Positions 2,914-21,922 of a stretch of 34,708 bases of DNA are shown one piece after another. The first letter of the stretch is position 1. Each line of letters opens with the position of its first letter. A program made the translations under genes and the position numbers. Source of the stretch: Actinomycetota bacterium (lineage in GTDB: Bacteria > Actinomycetota > Acidimicrobiia > IMCC26256 > BP-133); contig JAUZEY010000109.1 of assembly GCA_030838785.1 (NCBI GenBank), positions 1-34,708 of the forward strand, given 5' to 3'. The notes beneath the pieces are model-generated. The model saw nothing but the letters and a program-made list of their open reading frames with translations, had not been told where the DNA came from and made no database searches.

Positions 2914-4215
2914 TTAGGCGATGTTGACGACCCAGGCGTCGCGCTCGCCGGCGGTGGTCTGTCCCGGCAGGGCCCCGGTGGTGCCGCCGGCCAGGTAGAA
3001 GCCGCCCCGGCCGATGGCCAGGGCCATGGCGTAGTCGTAGGCCGGGCCGCCGAACTGGCGGACCCACAGCAGGTCGCCGGTCGGGCCGGCGGCGGCCAGG
3101 AAGGCGTCGGTGCCACCGCTCGAGGCTGCGCCGTCGAGGGGGCCGCCGACCCGGCCGGCCACGAACAGGTGGCCGGTGGCGTCGAAGGCGATGGCTTCCG
3201 CGTCGTCGGCGCCGGGCGTGCCGAACTGCCGCGACCACAGGTCGCCCCCGTTCCGGAAGGCGACGATGTAGGCGTCGGTATCGCCCTGGGTCGTCTGGCC
3301 GGGGAGGGTGCCGAGCGTCGTGCCGGCCACGAACACGTCGCCGGACGGGCCCACGGTGACCGCCACCCCATAGTCGTCGGAGTGGCTGCCGAACTGGCGT
3401 GTCCACACGACCTTGCCGGCGGGGTCGTACTGGCGGGCGAAGCCGTCGAGCCCCCCGGCGGCGGCGGCGCCGGCGAGCAGGCCGCTGGTCTCGCCGGCCA
3501 CGACCGGGGCGCCGGTGGCGTCGAGGGCGACGGCGAGGGCGTAGTCCTCCCCGACGGTGCCGAACTGCCGGACCCAGACGGGGTTACCGGCCGGGTCCCA
3601 CTTGGTGATGAAGGCGTCGTAGTCGCCGGCGGACGTCTGCCCGGGCAGCGCCGCCCGCGTGCCGCCGACGACGTAGGCGAAGCCGGCGTGGTCGACCTTG
3701 ACCGCCGCGGCACTCTCCCCGCCGCCGCCGCCGAACTGCCGGGTCCACAACTCGTCGCCGGCGGCGTCGTACTTGCGGATGAAGGCGTCCCACCCCCCGG
3801 CCGAGGACTGGCCGGGGAGTGTCCCGAACGTCTGCCCGACGACGTAGACGTTGCCGCTGTCGTCGAGGGCGATGCCCTTCGGCTCGTCGCGCTCGTAGCT
3901 CCCGAACTGCCGCGTCCACACCTCGTGGCCCGCCGGGTCGTAGCGCCGCAGGAAGACGTCGATCATCCCGGCCGCCTTCTGGCCCGGCAGCTCGCCCGAG
4001 GTCTGGCCCGTGACGTAGAGATTGCCGGCGGGGTCGATGGCGACGCCCTTGGCGTCGTCGGGATAGCGGGTACCGAACTGGGCGGTCCAGGCGATCGTGG
4101 CGGCGGGGGCGGCGGCCGGCCAGAGCAGTGCGCCGCAGAGGGCCGCGGCCAGTCCGACGGCCCCGGATCGGATGGCGGCCCAGCGGCGGGTGGGGGGACG
4201 CGACGCTCTGCGCAT
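2914..4215 (-). CDS. Secreted seven-repeat SBBP-type beta-propeller protein
   Basis: Start CAT at 4213-4215, stop at 2914-2916. Signal peptide followed by seven ~57-aa repeats of the form QFG...DDA.A.A.D..GN.YV.G.T.G.LPGQ..AG..DAF...YDPAG...WTR. Confidence 0.88.
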   Translation of the reverse strand: MRRASRPPTRRWAAIRSGAVGLAAALCGALLWPAAAPAATIAWTAQFGTRYPDDAKGVAIDPAGNLYVTGQTSGELPGQKAAGMIDVFLRRYDPAGHEVWTRQFGSYERDEPKGIALDDSGNVYVVGQTFGTLPGQSSAGGWDAFIRKYDAAGDELWTRQFGGGGGESAAAVKVDHAGFAYVVGGTRAALPGQTSAGDYDAFITKWDPAGNPVWVRQFGTVGEDYALAVALDATGAPVVAGETSGLLAGAAAAGGLDGFARQYDPAGKVVWTRQFGSHSDDYGVAVTVGPSGDVFVAGTTLGTLPGQTTQGDTDAYIVAFRNGGDLWSRQFGTPGADDAEAIAFDATGHLFVAGRVGGPLDGAASSGGTDAFLAAAGPTGDLLWVRQFGGPAYDYAMALAIGRGGFYLAGGTTGALPGQTTAGERDAWVVNIA

Positions 4216-4306
4216 GCAGCACTCCTCCCCCCCCGAAAAGCGGTCGTGAGCACCGCCGACCATAGCCGTCCCCGGCTGGGGACGACAGTGGCGCGCCGCG
4301 CTCCGA

Positions 4307-5038
4307 TCAGAAGGTGAGGACGGGCCAGCCGTTGGTGTGCGCGGCGCGGCGGAGGCGCCGGTCAGGATTGACCGCCACCGGGCGGCCGGCGGCACTGAGA
4401 AGGGGGAGATCCGACATCGAGTCGGAGTAGGCGGTGGCCCGGGAGAGGTCGGCCGTGCCGAGCTCGACCCACAGCCGGGCGAGCTTGCCCCGGCCGTGGC
4501 AGAACGGGCCAACGAGTCGGCCCGTGAACCGGCCCTCGCACACCTCGGCCAGGGTGCCGACGGCCCGCTGGGCGCCGAGGGCACGGGCGGCGGCGTCGAC
4601 GAGCGGCTGCGGGCTGGCCGAGGCGATGACGCAGAAGTCCCCGGCGGCGAGGTGGCGGTCGAGGAGCCACCGGGCGCCGGGGCGGGCGGTGCGGGCCAAC
4701 TCGTCACCGAGGCCCTCCGCCACGTCGAGAAACGGTCCCGCCTCGCGGTCGGCCACATCGGCCAGCAGGGCGGCGAGCAGTCGATGGGCGCCGGAGACCC
4801 CCTGGCCCCGCCGCACGAAGACGGCCTCTCGGGCCAGGTAGCCGGCCAGCCGCCGGCTACCCACCATGCCGGCGCGGTGCAGCGCCCGCCCGAAGAGGCT
4901 CAGACTGGACCCGGGGAGCAACGTCCGGTCGAGATCGAATACCGCCAGCCGGCCGTTGTGGTCCGGAAGCCTCGTGGGTGCTTCCGGGGGGCCGGATGTG
5001 GTGACCTCGTCTCGGGGGACGAAGGCCCGGGTGCTCAT
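4307..5038 (-). CDS. HAD-superfamily phosphatase (SerB-like, subfamily IB)
   Basis: AVFDLDRTLLPGSS motif I, ASASPQPLVD motif II, and YSDSMSDLPLL motif IV. ATG on minus at 5036-5038. Confidence 0.85.
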   Translation of the reverse strand: MSTRAFVPRDEVTTSGPPEAPTRLPDHNGRLAVFDLDRTLLPGSSLSLFGRALHRAGMVGSRRLAGYLAREAVFVRRGQGVSGAHRLLAALLADVADREAGPFLDVAEGLGDELARTARPGARWLLDRHLAAGDFCVIASASPQPLVDAAARALGAQRAVGTLAEVCEGRFTGRLVGPFCHGRGKLARLWVELGTADLSRATAYSDSMSDLPLLSAAGRPVAVNPDRRLRRAAHTNGWPVLTF

Positions 5039-16786: not shown

Positions 16787-17842
16787 ATGGGTCGTCACCG
16801 TCGCATCCGGGCTGTCAGCGGGATGACCGCCGTCGCCCTCCTCACCGCGCTGCTGCTCCCGGCGTCGCCGGCGTCGGCCGAGAGCCCGATCCACCCGGAG
16901 AACCGCCCGAGCGGCCTGGCGGGGGAAACAAACGGGCAGGTGCGGCCCGAGGCGCTCGTCGGCGTGGAAAGCAATTGTCAGGCGGCGCGGGCGGCCGGCT
17001 CCAGCCTGGCTCTCCTGCTGGCCGCGGCCCGGGCCGACGGCGTGCCGCTACGCCCCGGCGACTGCTACCGGCCGGCCAACCAGCAGTCGGCAGCCAAGTC
17101 GAACGCCTGCGGCAAGGGCAACTGCGCCTGCGCCGCCGGGACGGGGACGTCGATGCACGGCTGGGGCGAAGCGGTCGACTTCCGCGACGCCGGTGGGAGC
17201 CTCACGTTCACGGCGTCCGGCTACCGGTGGCTGAAGGACAACGGTGCCCGCTTCGGGTGGAACCACGCCCGGTGGTCCGAACCGGGCGGGAGCGCCTGCC
17301 CCGAGGCCTGGCACTGGGAGTGGGTCGGCGACGGCGGCCGCATGCAGCTCGACACCATCCGGGCCGACGTCGTGGGGATCGTGGCCTGCCGCTCCGGCGG
17401 GTACTGGGGCCTCACCGGTCTCGGCGGCGTGGCGGCCCGGGGCGGAGCGCCGGATGCCGGGTCGACCGGCGCCCCCCTCGCCTGGCTGGTGAAGGGCGGG
17501 GCGGCGACGCCGTCGGGTCGGGGTTACTGGCTGGTGGCGTCGGACGGGGGAATCTTCTCGTTCGGGGATGCGGCGTTCTTCGGGTCGCGGGGCGGATCGT
17601 CGACCGGCGACCGGTTCGTGGCCATGTCCGCCAGCCCGACCGGGCGGGGCTACTGGCTGGCCTCCTCCGATGGCGCCGTGTTCCCCTTCGGCGAAGCCGC
17701 CCCGGCTGGGGCACTGACCGCGAAGCCCAACCTGCCCATCGTCGGCCTGGCGGCCACCCAGTCCGGCAAGGGTTACTGGTTGACCGCTGCGGACGGGACT
17801 GTGTTCTCCTTCGGGGACGCCGTCGTCGCCGGCTCCGCCTAG
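16787..17842 (+). CDS. Secreted M15-type (VanY-like) D-Ala-D-Ala carboxypeptidase domain with C-terminal GYW repeats
   Basis: Signal peptide; SMHGWGEAVDF and EAWHWEW metal/catalytic motifs; C-terminal repeats GRGYWLVASDGGIFSFGDAAFFGS / GRGYWLASSDGAVFPFGEA / GKGYWLTAADGTVFSFGDAVVAGS. Confidence 0.88.
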   Translation: MGRHRRIRAVSGMTAVALLTALLLPASPASAESPIHPENRPSGLAGETNGQVRPEALVGVESNCQAARAAGSSLALLLAAARADGVPLRPGDCYRPANQQSAAKSNACGKGNCACAAGTGTSMHGWGEAVDFRDAGGSLTFTASGYRWLKDNGARFGWNHARWSEPGGSACPEAWHWEWVGDGGRMQLDTIRADVVGIVACRSGGYWGLTGLGGVAARGGAPDAGSTGAPLAWLVKGGAATPSGRGYWLVASDGGIFSFGDAAFFGSRGGSSTGDRFVAMSASPTGRGYWLASSDGAVFPFGEAAPAGALTAKPNLPIVGLAATQSGKGYWLTAADGTVFSFGDAVVAGSA

Positions 17843-18478: not shown

Positions 18479-19171
18479 ATGAAGCTCAATTTCCGGAAGA
18501 AGGTTCTCTTGAGCCTGGGAGTGGTCGCCGGCATCGGCGCCCTCGCCGGTGCCGGAACCTTTGCCACGTTCACCGCCCAGACCTCCAACCCCAACAACAC
18601 GTTCGCCGACGGCACGCTGGTGCTGAGCAACACGGTCGGAACGGCCACGGCCTGCCTCTCGACCGGCGGTGGCAACACCGACACGAACGCCAACGGCCTC
18701 TGCGACACGGCCTTCAGCCTCAGCGTCAAGGCACCGGGCGATTCGAGCACCGCCGACATCACCCTGGAGAACATGGGCAGCCTGCCCGCCTCGGCCCTCA
18801 AGGCCTTCTCGGGATCGTGCACCGACGGCGACGCCAACGGGGAGACCTACCACGGCAGCGGGTCGGCCTGCGGCAAGGTACAGATCTACGTCCAGCAGTA
18901 CTCCGATGCCTTCAGCACCCCGTCGGCCTGCCTCTACGGGGGTGCGACCGGCGCCACCTGCAACTTCTCCGACGCCACCAAAACTCTGACGACCTTTGTC
19001 ACCGCCTATCCCAACGTCGGCAGCGGCTTGTCGGCCGGGGCCCTGACCGCCGCCGGCGGCGGGTCCCCGAAGGCGTGGGTCAGGGTCGGCGTGAAGCTTC
19101 CCGCCAACGCCGACAACTCCTACCAGGGCCGGTCGGCCTCGCTGGCTCTCAACTGGCACATCACCCAGTAA
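18479..19171 (+). CDS. TasA/CalY-like SipW-dependent surface protein 1
   Basis: MKLNFRKKVLLSLGVVAGIGALAGAGTFATFTAQTSNPNNTFADGTLVLSN: SipW-type signal (basic residues, hydrophobic core, TFATFTA) followed by a TasA-like beta-rich mature domain. Followed by a SipW-like peptidase. Confidence 0.82.
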   Translation: MKLNFRKKVLLSLGVVAGIGALAGAGTFATFTAQTSNPNNTFADGTLVLSNTVGTATACLSTGGGNTDTNANGLCDTAFSLSVKAPGDSSTADITLENMGSLPASALKAFSGSCTDGDANGETYHGSGSACGKVQIYVQQYSDAFSTPSACLYGGATGATCNFSDATKTLTTFVTAYPNVGSGLSAGALTAAGGGSPKAWVRVGVKLPANADNSYQGRSASLALNWHITQ

Positions 19172-19180
19172 GCGGATGTG

Positions 19181-19735
19181 ATGAGCACCGCGGTACTCGA
19201 CGTCAGGGCCGCCAGGCCGGCGCCAGCGCTCTCGCTGGCGCCGGCGGCGGTGCGCCTCGTCGTCAAGGCCTCGCTCGGGGTCGTCCTGCTGGCCCTCGTG
19301 ACCCTCGTCGTCGGGCCCCGGATGTATCCGTTCGAGAGCTTCTACGTCCGCAGCGGCAGCATGTCGCCCACCATCCCGGTGGGGGCCCTGATCATCGCCA
19401 CCCGGGCGCCGGCCGCCCAGCTGGGTGAGGGCGACGTGATCGTCTTCCAGCGCCCCGGCCGGCCGGGGACGATGGTCGTGCACCGGATCTACGCCGTCGT
19501 GCAGACGCCGACGGGCCGGGCCTTCATGACCAGGGGTGACGCCAACCCGGGCCCCGACGACTGGATGGTGGCGGCCACCGGCGACGGCTGGCGGGCCGAG
19601 TACTCGATCGCCCGGGCCGGCTTCACGGTCGGCTGGCTCCACGCCGCACTGAGCCGCCGGGGATGGCTCGGTGCGTTCGCCATCGTCGTCGCCGTCTGCG
19701 CCCTCATTTCGATCTGGCAGAGCGAGGAACCGTGA
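19181..19735 (+). CDS. sipW-like: SipW/ER-type signal peptidase I
   Basis: SGSMSPTIPVGALIIA catalytic Ser motif, VVHRIYAV (His in place of the bacterial catalytic Lys), TRGDANPGPDDW motif, N- and C-terminal TM segments. Confidence 0.9.
   Translation: MSTAVLDVRAARPAPALSLAPAAVRLVVKASLGVVLLALVTLVVGPRMYPFESFYVRSGSMSPTIPVGALIIATRAPAAQLGEGDVIVFQRPGRPGTMVVHRIYAVVQTPTGRAFMTRGDANPGPDDWMVAATGDGWRAEYSIARAGFTVGWLHAALSRRGWLGAFAIVVAVCALISIWQSEEP
19216..19245 (+). repeat. Perfect 13-bp inverted repeat (4-nt loop) inside the 5' end of the sipW-like gene
   Basis: GCCGGCGCCAGCG-CTCT-CGCTGGCGCCGGC, about 35 nt after the ATG at 19181. Confidence 0.85.
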
Positions 19736-20385
19736 CATCCCCGAAGGACAACCCGGCACCCCCGGCGAAGACGCTGCTCGGTGGCACCGGACGGAAGGTC
19801 CTGCTGTCGCTGGGGGCGCTCGGCGTGGCCGGCGCCCTGGCCGGCATGGGCACCTTCGCCACCTTCACCGCCACCACCAGCGCCAGCTCCACCCTGGCGT
19901 CGGGGACGGTGGTGATCGCGCTCGGGAACACCGGGGCGTCCACGAACCGGCTCACGGTGAACGCTTCCGGCCTCGTGCCCGGTGACACGGTGCAGCGGTC
20001 GTTCGACCTGTCCAACACCGGCAGCCAGGACCTGGCCTCGGTGGCGCTCACGACCACCGCCTCGCCCTCGTCCCTCCTCGACACGGACAGCACCAACGGC
20101 CTCCAGATGGTGGTCGACCGCTGCTCCGTGGCCTGGACCGAATCCGGTTCGTCGCCTGCCTTCAGCTACACCTGCGGCGGCTCCACGACGACGATCCTCA
20201 CCACCCGGGCGGTGATCCAGTCGGCGCTGACCATGTCGGGCCTGAGCGCCCTCACCGCCGCCGGCACCGACCACCTGCGGTTGACGCTGACCTTCCCGGG
20301 GACGGCCGGCGCCTCCCTCCAGGGCCTCAGCTCGACGCTCACCTACAGCTTCCTCGGCACGCAGCGGGCCGGTGCCGCCCACTAG
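19732..20385 (+). CDS. TasA/CalY-like SipW-dependent surface protein 2
   Basis: GTG overlaps the sipW stop (GTGA). GRKVLLSLGALGVAGALAGMGTFATFTATTSASSTLASGTVVIAL closely resembles the signal of the 18479 protein. Later GLVPGDTVQRSFDLSNTGSQDLASVAL is TasA/CalY-like. Confidence 0.82.
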   Translation: MTSPKDNPAPPAKTLLGGTGRKVLLSLGALGVAGALAGMGTFATFTATTSASSTLASGTVVIALGNTGASTNRLTVNASGLVPGDTVQRSFDLSNTGSQDLASVALTTTASPSSLLDTDSTNGLQMVVDRCSVAWTESGSSPAFSYTCGGSTTTILTTRAVIQSALTMSGLSALTAAGTDHLRLTLTFPGTAGASLQGLSSTLTYSFLGTQRAGAAH

Positions 20386-20392
20386 ATCAGTG

Positions 20393-21922
20393 ATGCGGAC
20401 CGTCGGACAGTGGGCCGGGCGGATCCTCCTGGCGGTGGCGGCCGCCGTGCTGCTGGCCGTCGGGATCGGTCCCCTCACCGGTGCCTACCGGATGGCCACC
20501 GTGTTGAGCGGCAGCATGGGGCGCGGCATGCCGGTCGGCTCCGTCGCCGTGCTGGTTCCCATCGACCCGGGGGCGGTGCAGGTGGGCGACGTCATCACCT
20601 ACCAGGCCCCGACTCCGGAGCATCAGGTGGTCACCCACCGGGTGGTGGAGATCACCGAACCCGGCCCCCACCCCGTCCTGCGGACCCGCGGCGACGCCAA
20701 CGGCACCCCCGATCCCTGGTCCGCCCGGCTGGACGGCGCCCCGGCCTGGCGGCGGGTGGCCGTCATCCCCTACGCCGGAACGATGATCCGGGCCCTGCGG
20801 TCGGCGCCGGTCCACCACGCCACCGTCCACCTCGTCCCTCTGGTCCTGCTGGCCGCCATGCTGGTGGCGATCTGGTCGCCCGGGTCGAAGCCGGGAAGGC
20901 GGCGACGGGTGTCGAGGCGCCAAGCGACGGCGGTGGCCGCCATCGTCGTCCTGACCGCCGCCGGTCCCGCCGCCGTGGCCGGCTTCACGAGCACCCCCGC
21001 CGCCGCCCACACCGTCGCCGCCGCCGCCGACTGGGTCGCGCCGTCCGTCAGCAGCACCGCCATCGCCAAGCCGACGGGCTACCTGGCCGGGGCCGTCAAG
21101 CAGGGCGGCACCTACTACGTCTACGCCAGCGTGGCCGACAGCGGGAACCCGCCCAGTGGCGTCTCCACGGTGAAGACCGACGAGAGCGCCATCACCTCGG
21201 GCCAGACGAGCGTCAGCCTCACCGCCGGGTCCTACTCGGTCAACGGGGTCGCCTACAACTACCGCAGCACCCTCCAGACGGCCAGCAGCCCGCTATCGGG
21301 CGGCAAGACGTACTCGATCACCTCCACCGACGCTCTGGCCTACAGCCGGCTCCAGACGGGCTACACGGTGACGATCGACAACGCCGGACCGACGGCGACC
21401 GACATCTCGACCGGCAACGCCGCCGGCGGCACGCACGGAATGGCCGAAGCCGGCGACACGATCACCTTCACCTTCAGCGAGCAGATCGACCCCCAATCGA
21501 TCCTCGCCGGCTGGACCGGGGCGTCCACCACCGTCGTGGTGGAGCTCCAGGACGGGGGGTGCACGCTGGTCCTCTGCAACAACGACACCTTCCAGATCTA
21601 CAACTCCGCCTACACCACCACGCTGCCGTTCGGGTCCGTGAGCCTCGCCACCGGCAGCTACTACGGCTGCTCCGGCATCGGTCTGCTGTGCGGCAAGACG
21701 CCGATGGCGTTCGGCGCCACGGGCACGGCCTCGACCATGGTGGAATCCGCCAACACCATCACGATCACGCTCGGGACCAGCAGCGGGGGCAACGGCATCA
21801 TCCACACCGTCGGGAGCAACACCGACATGGCCTGGACCTCGACCACCACGCCCTACGACGCAGCGGGCAACACCGCATCGGGGAACACCTACACCGAGGG
21901 CGACAACGACTACGAGTTCTAG
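20393..21922 (+). CDS. SipW-type signal peptidase fused to an extra TM/signal-like segment and a ~300-aa extracellular beta-rich domain
   Basis: Peptidase: VLSGSMGRGMPVGS, VVTHRVVEI, TRGDANGTPDPW. Then a TM (HLVPLVLLAAMLVAIW), basic linker GSKPGRRRRVSRRQ, second hydrophobic segment ATAVAAIVVLTAAGPAAVAGFTSTPAAA, then a Ser/Thr-rich domain including TVTIDNAGPTATDISTGNAAGG...EAGDTITFTFSEQIDPQSIL. Confidence 0.85.
   Translation: MRTVGQWAGRILLAVAAAVLLAVGIGPLTGAYRMATVLSGSMGRGMPVGSVAVLVPIDPGAVQVGDVITYQAPTPEHQVVTHRVVEITEPGPHPVLRTRGDANGTPDPWSARLDGAPAWRRVAVIPYAGTMIRALRSAPVHHATVHLVPLVLLAAMLVAIWSPGSKPGRRRRVSRRQATAVAAIVVLTAAGPAAVAGFTSTPAAAHTVAAAADWVAPSVSSTAIAKPTGYLAGAVKQGGTYYVYASVADSGNPPSGVSTVKTDESAITSGQTSVSLTAGSYSVNGVAYNYRSTLQTASSPLSGGKTYSITSTDALAYSRLQTGYTVTIDNAGPTATDISTGNAAGGTHGMAEAGDTITFTFSEQIDPQSILAGWTGASTTVVVELQDGGCTLVLCNNDTFQIYNSAYTTTLPFGSVSLATGSYYGCSGIGLLCGKTPMAFGATGTASTMVESANTITITLGTSSGGNGIIHTVGSNTDMAWTSTTTPYDAAGNTASGNTYTEGDNDYEF

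Follow-up and report, generated by a model that had tools for sequence, protein, structure and literature searches.

Why should a signal peptidase carry about 350 additional residues, with a membrane segment and an ectodomain of their own? The question is raised by a compact locus on contig JAUZEY010000109.1 of an Actinomycetota bacterium, within a stretch of 34,708 nucleotides that is referred to here as the window. The locus consists of four co-directional, tightly packed genes on the plus strand (window positions 18479–21922): gene A (18479..19171), encoding a TasA-like secreted protein of 230 amino acids (aa); gene B (19181..19735), encoding an unfused SipW/archaeal-type signal peptidase of 184 aa; gene C (19732..20385), encoding a TasA/camelysin-like secreted protein of 217 aa; and gene D (20393..21922), encoding a 509-aa protein in which a SipW-type peptidase is followed by a predicted internal signal and exported domain. 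We hold with moderate confidence that this is an operon of two cognate TasA–SipW-type export pairs, A–B and C–D, in which D would be a self-releasing fusion of a peptidase and its substrate.

All four reading frames were confirmed, together with the tight packing and the N-termini quoted in the original prediction, which had described the locus as a substrate, peptidase, substrate, peptidase-fusion series. Genes A and B are spaced by 9 bases, an in-frame GTG at 19178 being an alternative start of B. The GTGA overlap that had been reported is also present: the TGA stop codon of B (19733–19735) shares bases with the GTG start codon of C (19732–19734). The likeliest start of D is ATG 20393, which leaves 7 bases between C and D; it was preferred over an in-frame GTG at 20372 because it is retained in a sister genome. 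The genes of the locus are retained in two genomes of the same genus, both drafts of hundreds of contigs, with ratios of nonsynonymous to synonymous substitution (dN/dS, NG86) of 0.29–0.41; this conservation argues that the locus is not a chance arrangement.

The peptidases B and D match the NCBIfam family TIGR02228 (sigpep_I_arch, cut-off 51.85) at 70.1 and 77.7 bits, respectively. Both display Ser-His in place of Ser-Lys, as S41 and H82 in D and as the equivalent motifs in B, where SGSM, VVHR and RGDAN were found. Ser41, His82 and Asp107 of D are invariant in D and 13 relatives (14 of 14 aligned). Judged by family match and motifs, B and D are archaeal/SipW-type signal peptidases, in agreement with the earlier description of two SipW-like enzymes with His. 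Both miss the cut-off of 190 of the Bacillus SipW equivalog NF046067 (48.1 bits for B, 61.8 for D).

The TIGR02228 match in D stops near residue 157 (numbered from ATG 20393), and the model of D places membrane helices at residues 2–29, 143–161 and 175–199, with a predicted local distance difference test score (pLDDT) mostly of 80–95 across residues 31–130. On the plus strand, D can be divided into a peptidase domain with its N-terminal and post-catalytic membrane helices and the three residues named above (20393..20875); a basic loop, S162–Q177, containing RRRRVSRR and predicted to be cytoplasmic from the positive-inside rule (20876..20923); an internal SipW-type signal, residues 178–196, with a predicted cut between A196 and G197 that places Phe198 at P2' (20924..20980); and a predicted exported domain of 313 aa, hereafter the cargo (20981..21922), with a weak match to the immunoglobulin (Ig)-like Pfam family Big_5 (18.4 bits, under the cut-off of 23.6). 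R170 in the loop and A196 at the junction are near-invariant among the 14 aligned proteins. As judged from its sequence, the C-terminal part of D opens with a segment that resembles the signals of A and C in type, and in D a peptidase and its own substrate are most likely united in one protein. The original prediction was right in calling D a peptidase fusion; it missed the internal SipW-type signal and the exported domain.

The SipW-type feature, an Ala at P1 and an aromatic residue at P2' past a hydrophobic stretch, occurs in all three proteins: A29/F31 in A, A43/F45 in C and A196/F198 in D. According to PMC10269814, TasA carries Phe at P2', a residue that E. coli LepB handles poorly at this position, an aromatic P2' residue is found in 0 of 143 verified LepB substrates, and SipW is an endoplasmic reticulum (ER)-type Ser-His enzyme dedicated to such a P2'-Phe site. 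By likeness to the TasA site, the motifs of A, C and D therefore point to SipW-type cleavage. The signal of A (18479..18565, plus strand) is predicted to be cut between A29 and T30, with Phe31 at P2', a position assigned by analogy with TasA (PMC10269814); G26, A29 and F31 are invariant in 7 aligned proteins. The signal of C (19732..19860, plus strand) would be cut between A43 and T44, with Phe45 at P2', a position that we infer; A43 and F45 are near-invariant in 30 aligned proteins.

The sister genome G001 offers a natural separation of the two halves of D. The order of A, B and C is unchanged there, and the position of D holds a 325-residue cargo protein without a peptidase. This protein has a GTG start 2 bases past the stop codon of C, and its N-terminus, MRHVVRLLVAVALIAVAPAALA, followed after the predicted cut by AFTST, is the same segment as the internal segment of D, with a signal-profile score of 19.1 (the profile is described below). 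The mature G001 cargo is 73% identical to the cargo of D, and it is not a relic because dN/dS is 0.31; no D-type peptidase was seen elsewhere in this incomplete genome. As far as the gene sequences can tell, this separation says that the second hydrophobic segment acts as a signal independently of the peptidase part. In the other same-genus genome, G002, D is fused as in the window, at 77% identity and with a cargo dN/dS of 0.41. That the fusion is a sequencing or assembly error joining two genes has a negligible probability: the draft state of the same-genus genomes would leave some room for it, and a chance or erroneous origin was rejected on the strength of G002 and of the wider survey, in which the same layout turned up in 19 of 45 tails of the class and again elsewhere in the phylum.

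The survey drew on a class sample of 296 genomes, searched with TIGR02228 at E ≤ 1e-12. A total of 89 peptidase open reading frames were read, 45 of them with at least 60 residues past the family match. A position profile made from 30 N-terminal signals of stand-alone substrates, and from no internal ones, was slid ungapped over the 45 tails, and significance was assessed with shuffles that preserve local composition. Nineteen of the 45 tails scored above zero, and each of these had its best window on the second hydrophobic segment; p ≤ 0.05 against the local shuffles was reached by 12 of these 19 and by 2 of the 26 others. A profile-free count found [AG]x[FWY] past the hydrophobic core in 20 of 26 long tails (the 19 plus the first copy in G222, G226, G103, G243, G005, G013-C45 and G133) versus 232 of 891 control cores (p 1.4e-7), the G222 first copy and G058 each presenting several cores to choose from. 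An hmmsearch of the signal profile on whole peptidases gave 5 internal matches at E < 0.01 in the 89 proteins and one match in 1 of 20 shuffled sets, and was replaced.

Together with G030, which was recognised by eye, the fused peptidases number 20. All 20 have a TasA-like gene on the same strand within 600 bp upstream, and 26 of the 69 other peptidases have one within 1.5 kb. A single TIGR02228 match (E ≤ 1e-12) was found in 13 of 19 fused genomes; G240 has two, both fused. Among the 10 tails searched for cargo families, three matched RCC1, two NHL and one each Laminin_G_3, CBM96 and DUF7483; one had no match, and the cargo of D gave the sub-threshold Big_5 match. The AxF motif is retained at the end of the segment while the linker and the cargo vary. 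As for the D-type gene of G030 (L058 8758-10965 / L193), its tail changes frame, with a signal-like segment and an NHL-like cargo in the other frame, probably through an assembly indel error. A different end was seen in G056, where the peptidase (L060:678-1709) stops directly after a segment of SipW-like character, GTWALSVFSDSPAVDANNFTTGIW, which gives the impression of a lost cargo.

The main rival to release, which we regard as unlikely, is that D stays anchored in the membrane by an uncleaved second hydrophobic segment, so that a three-span D would hold a binding domain by the peptidase, as a fibre tether or for substrate recruitment. Other long-tailed peptidases (L067, L069, L132, L139, L270, L271, L272 and L274) are built in a way that suits it: their second membrane segment lacks a SipW-type junction and is followed by an ectodomain with a pattern of about YTxxGxFxYxA...GPVYxxxxxxTGDPxFLRL, and no TasA-like neighbour was found for them. 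Since such proteins exist, fusion alone is no proof of release. The internal junction of D itself scores 2.0 against the signal profile (p 0.28) and is not significant alone, which also supports an uncut anchor. Several further points weigh against a self-releasing D. The G002 junction scores 13.1 with p 0.055; 3 of the 19 best windows are without an aromatic P2' residue, a register shift of the window accounting for one of the three; and the profile prefers Phe in its P2' column, so that a P2' count on profile windows is biased. The NCBIfam SipW-type signal model TIGR04088 (cut-off 19) misses even the N-terminal signals of A (14.8) and C (17.1); tried as an independent detector of internal signals, it matched 1 of 20, not that of D, and was dropped. 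The model of the D cargo has pLDDT < 50 and is unusable for a fold search. Against an uncut anchor stand the persistence of the AxF motif at the segment end despite changing cargo and linker, and the occurrence of the same segment as an N-terminal signal in G001.

If D is a self-releasing fusion, its two peptidase helices would be followed by the basic loop and by the internal signal, which would carry a third stretch of polypeptide, the cargo, through the membrane. Cutting between A196 and G197, either in cis or by a neighbouring copy of the peptidase, would then free the cargo outside at one copy per enzyme. Such a cargo could be a minor fibre-associated part, namely an adhesin, a tip or an anchor: release in a single copy for each enzyme would suit a minor component, and the propeller, lectin-like and carbohydrate-binding cargoes are of kinds that an adhesin or anchor might have. 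Because the fused enzyme is the sole peptidase of its kind found in most related genomes, the neighbouring TasA-like protein would also depend on it for processing there. More broadly, we tentatively propose, while being slightly more doubtful than convinced, that Actinomycetota have, probably more than once, built export polyproteins from a SipW-type peptidase, an internal signal and a swappable domain (beta-propeller, lectin-like, carbohydrate-binding or Ig-like), self-cleaved to yield one copy per enzyme; the dose of a fibre adhesin or tip would in this way be coupled to the processing enzyme, which would also trim the TasA-like neighbour.

Across the phylum sample, TIGR02228 matches were obtained in 103 of 396 genomes. 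Fifty loci were read, comprising the 30 best (one of them from the window's class) and 20 picked mainly for long frames; 16 had tails of at least 130 residues, of which 8 scored above zero, 6 of these with p ≤ 0.05, counts that give no frequency since the loci were chosen. Fused tails of more than 350 residues were present in L158, L193, L212, L221, L222 and L229, all of which are records of metagenome-assembled genomes. The peptidase tree needs 12 changes of fusion state, of which well-supported branches force 2. In cultured Actinomycetota (Arthrobacter, Paenarthrobacter, Sinomonas, Kineosporia and Blastococcus), a C-type substrate likewise occurs with a downstream peptidase; in contrast to D, the peptidases adjoining the C-type gene are mostly short-tailed, as seen in 79 named loci mostly from Arthrobacter and its allies. 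Paenarthrobacter aurescens TC1 carries three C-type TasA-like genes on three contigs (L202, L205 and L206), one with a peptidase nearby, and offers an experimental handle.

With regard to the substrates, C is a member of the Pfam family Peptidase_M73 (PF12389), at 52.4 bits against a gathering score of 22.5, and A stays just below that score (22.1 bits, with the signal part only). A and C are homologous beyond the signal (BLASTP E 8e-6 across A 7–230). A profile from 30 C-type proteins matches TasA chains in the PDB (8aur, E 4e-13; 5of1, E 9.7e-13), and the tie of C to the TasA fold is through this profile only. For A, an AlphaFold2 model was used, with a mean pLDDT of 77.7 and weak first 80 residues. 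Foldseek returned the TasA fibre 8aur as the sole PDB match at E ≤ 0.001 (E 5.8e-7), and VIA-align gave Z 9.5 across 148 residues for 8aur; TasA crystals followed at 8.3 and 8.1, the Pyrobaculum bundling pilin 7ueg at 6.9 and the archaeal thread 7pnb at 5.9. Matches of the model to glycosidases, the P23-77 capsid protein and chaperone-usher pilins were set aside as common beta-sandwich arrangements. A is, according to its model, TasA-like by fold and not a Pfam M73 member. The original prediction, which had made its case depend on a TasA-like fold of the mature domains, is borne out for A, whose predicted fold best matches TasA; its proposal that an actinobacterium encodes TasA-type proteins with SipW-type signals next to SipW-type peptidases holds for C by M73 membership and for A by fold. 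Both proteins lie far below the cut-off of 450 of the TasA equivalog NF046066 (A 19.4, C 34.4 bits) and are, by this measure, not TasA orthologues in the strict sense. The closest relatives of A are other TasA-like genes adjoining B-type peptidases; A-like genes were found in 8 of the 296 genomes of the class, and C-like genes in 7 of 58 genomes of the order.

In the favoured arrangement of two export pairs, A and C would be secreted through their SipW-type signals, trimmed by the adjacent Ser-His peptidases and probably polymerised into a surface fibre, as TasA is. It seems rather improbable to us that these TasA-like proteins form no fibres and instead play a different part, camelysin-like, adhesin or spore-coat-like, in soluble or wall-bound form: the M73 family is named for a peptidase activity, which would suit such a role, and against it speak the top fold matches of A, to the fibre subunit and the crystals of TasA and to the Pyrobaculum bundling pilin.

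The association of substrate and peptidase in relatives, on which the earlier claim also relied, is well marked in the class sample. M73 genes occurred in 33 of the 296 genomes and TIGR02228 peptidases in 73, with both in 31 (Fisher one-sided p 1.5e-19). Out of 35 M73 genes, 28 have a TIGR02228 peptidase on the same contig, always on the same strand and in 26 cases within 1.5 kb. The C-type gene of G040 (L059:2839-3567) has no TIGR02228 peptidase on its contig at the threshold used. When the distance matrices of substrates and peptidases were compared over 42 adjacent pairs (46 found, 4 short ones dropped), the Mantel r was 0.76, not equalled in any of 5000 permutations, a correlation to which whole-genome shared descent contributes; genomes with two pairs provide a control for pairing within one genome. 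Outside the genus, the two nearest relatives of A, and likewise of B, are G034 and G118-C41, and those of C, and likewise of D, are G224 and G118-C44, so that A–B and C–D look, from their sequences, like two old, anciently diverged cognate pairs brought together at one locus.

The original prediction had termed the system duplicated, which is not borne out in the sense of a recent tandem copy. Recent tandem duplication of one substrate–peptidase pair would explain the similar N-termini, the repeated order and the homology of A with C and of B with D; it is very improbable given that B and D are only 30% identical, that the pairs have different partners elsewhere and that in G118 they sit on two separate contigs. 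In the peptidase tree, which is poorly resolved (15 of 86 inner branches well supported), B falls among peptidases that neighbour A-type substrates and D among those that neighbour C-type ones, in agreement with the pairing. The tree and the partner groupings led us to reject a recent duplication.

Compared with tapA-sipW-tasA of B. subtilis and calY/tasA-sipW of B. cereus (Bacillus operon and fibre-assembly background from PMC9674648), the locus likewise places a TasA-family protein with Phe at P2' and a TasA-like fold beside an ER-type Ser-His peptidase. It differs in having two diverged pairs, one with its peptidase fused to an internal signal and cargo, and in proteins far under the NCBIfam TasA and SipW equivalog cut-offs; TapA was not identified at the locus, though it was not searched for. 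The likeness of A to the Pyrobaculum bundling pili and the archaeal thread, which rank below TasA, is by fold alone. We know of no fused peptidase in those archaeal systems. No published description of a SipW-type peptidase fused to a substrate was found by title or the start of the abstract in a limited literature collection, which is no proof of absence.

Should D cleave itself, a signal peptidase and its substrate would be united in one protein, which would lend itself to studying how a Ser-His signal peptidase cuts in cis, what distinguishes SipW-type from ordinary sites and how the dose of fibre adhesins is set. The survey also singles out a set of long signal peptidase genes as encoding proteins of two parts, and it shows TasA–SipW modules to be common in Actinomycetota; cultured Arthrobacter and Paenarthrobacter are among the carriers, and fibre assembly can be tested in them.

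Two other genes of the window were noted. Positions 2914–4758 contain a minus-strand frame of 614 residues with SBBP beta-propeller repeats, and positions 16787–17842 encode a VanY-type carboxypeptidase with C-terminal repeats of the GGxxxFGDAxFxGS kind.

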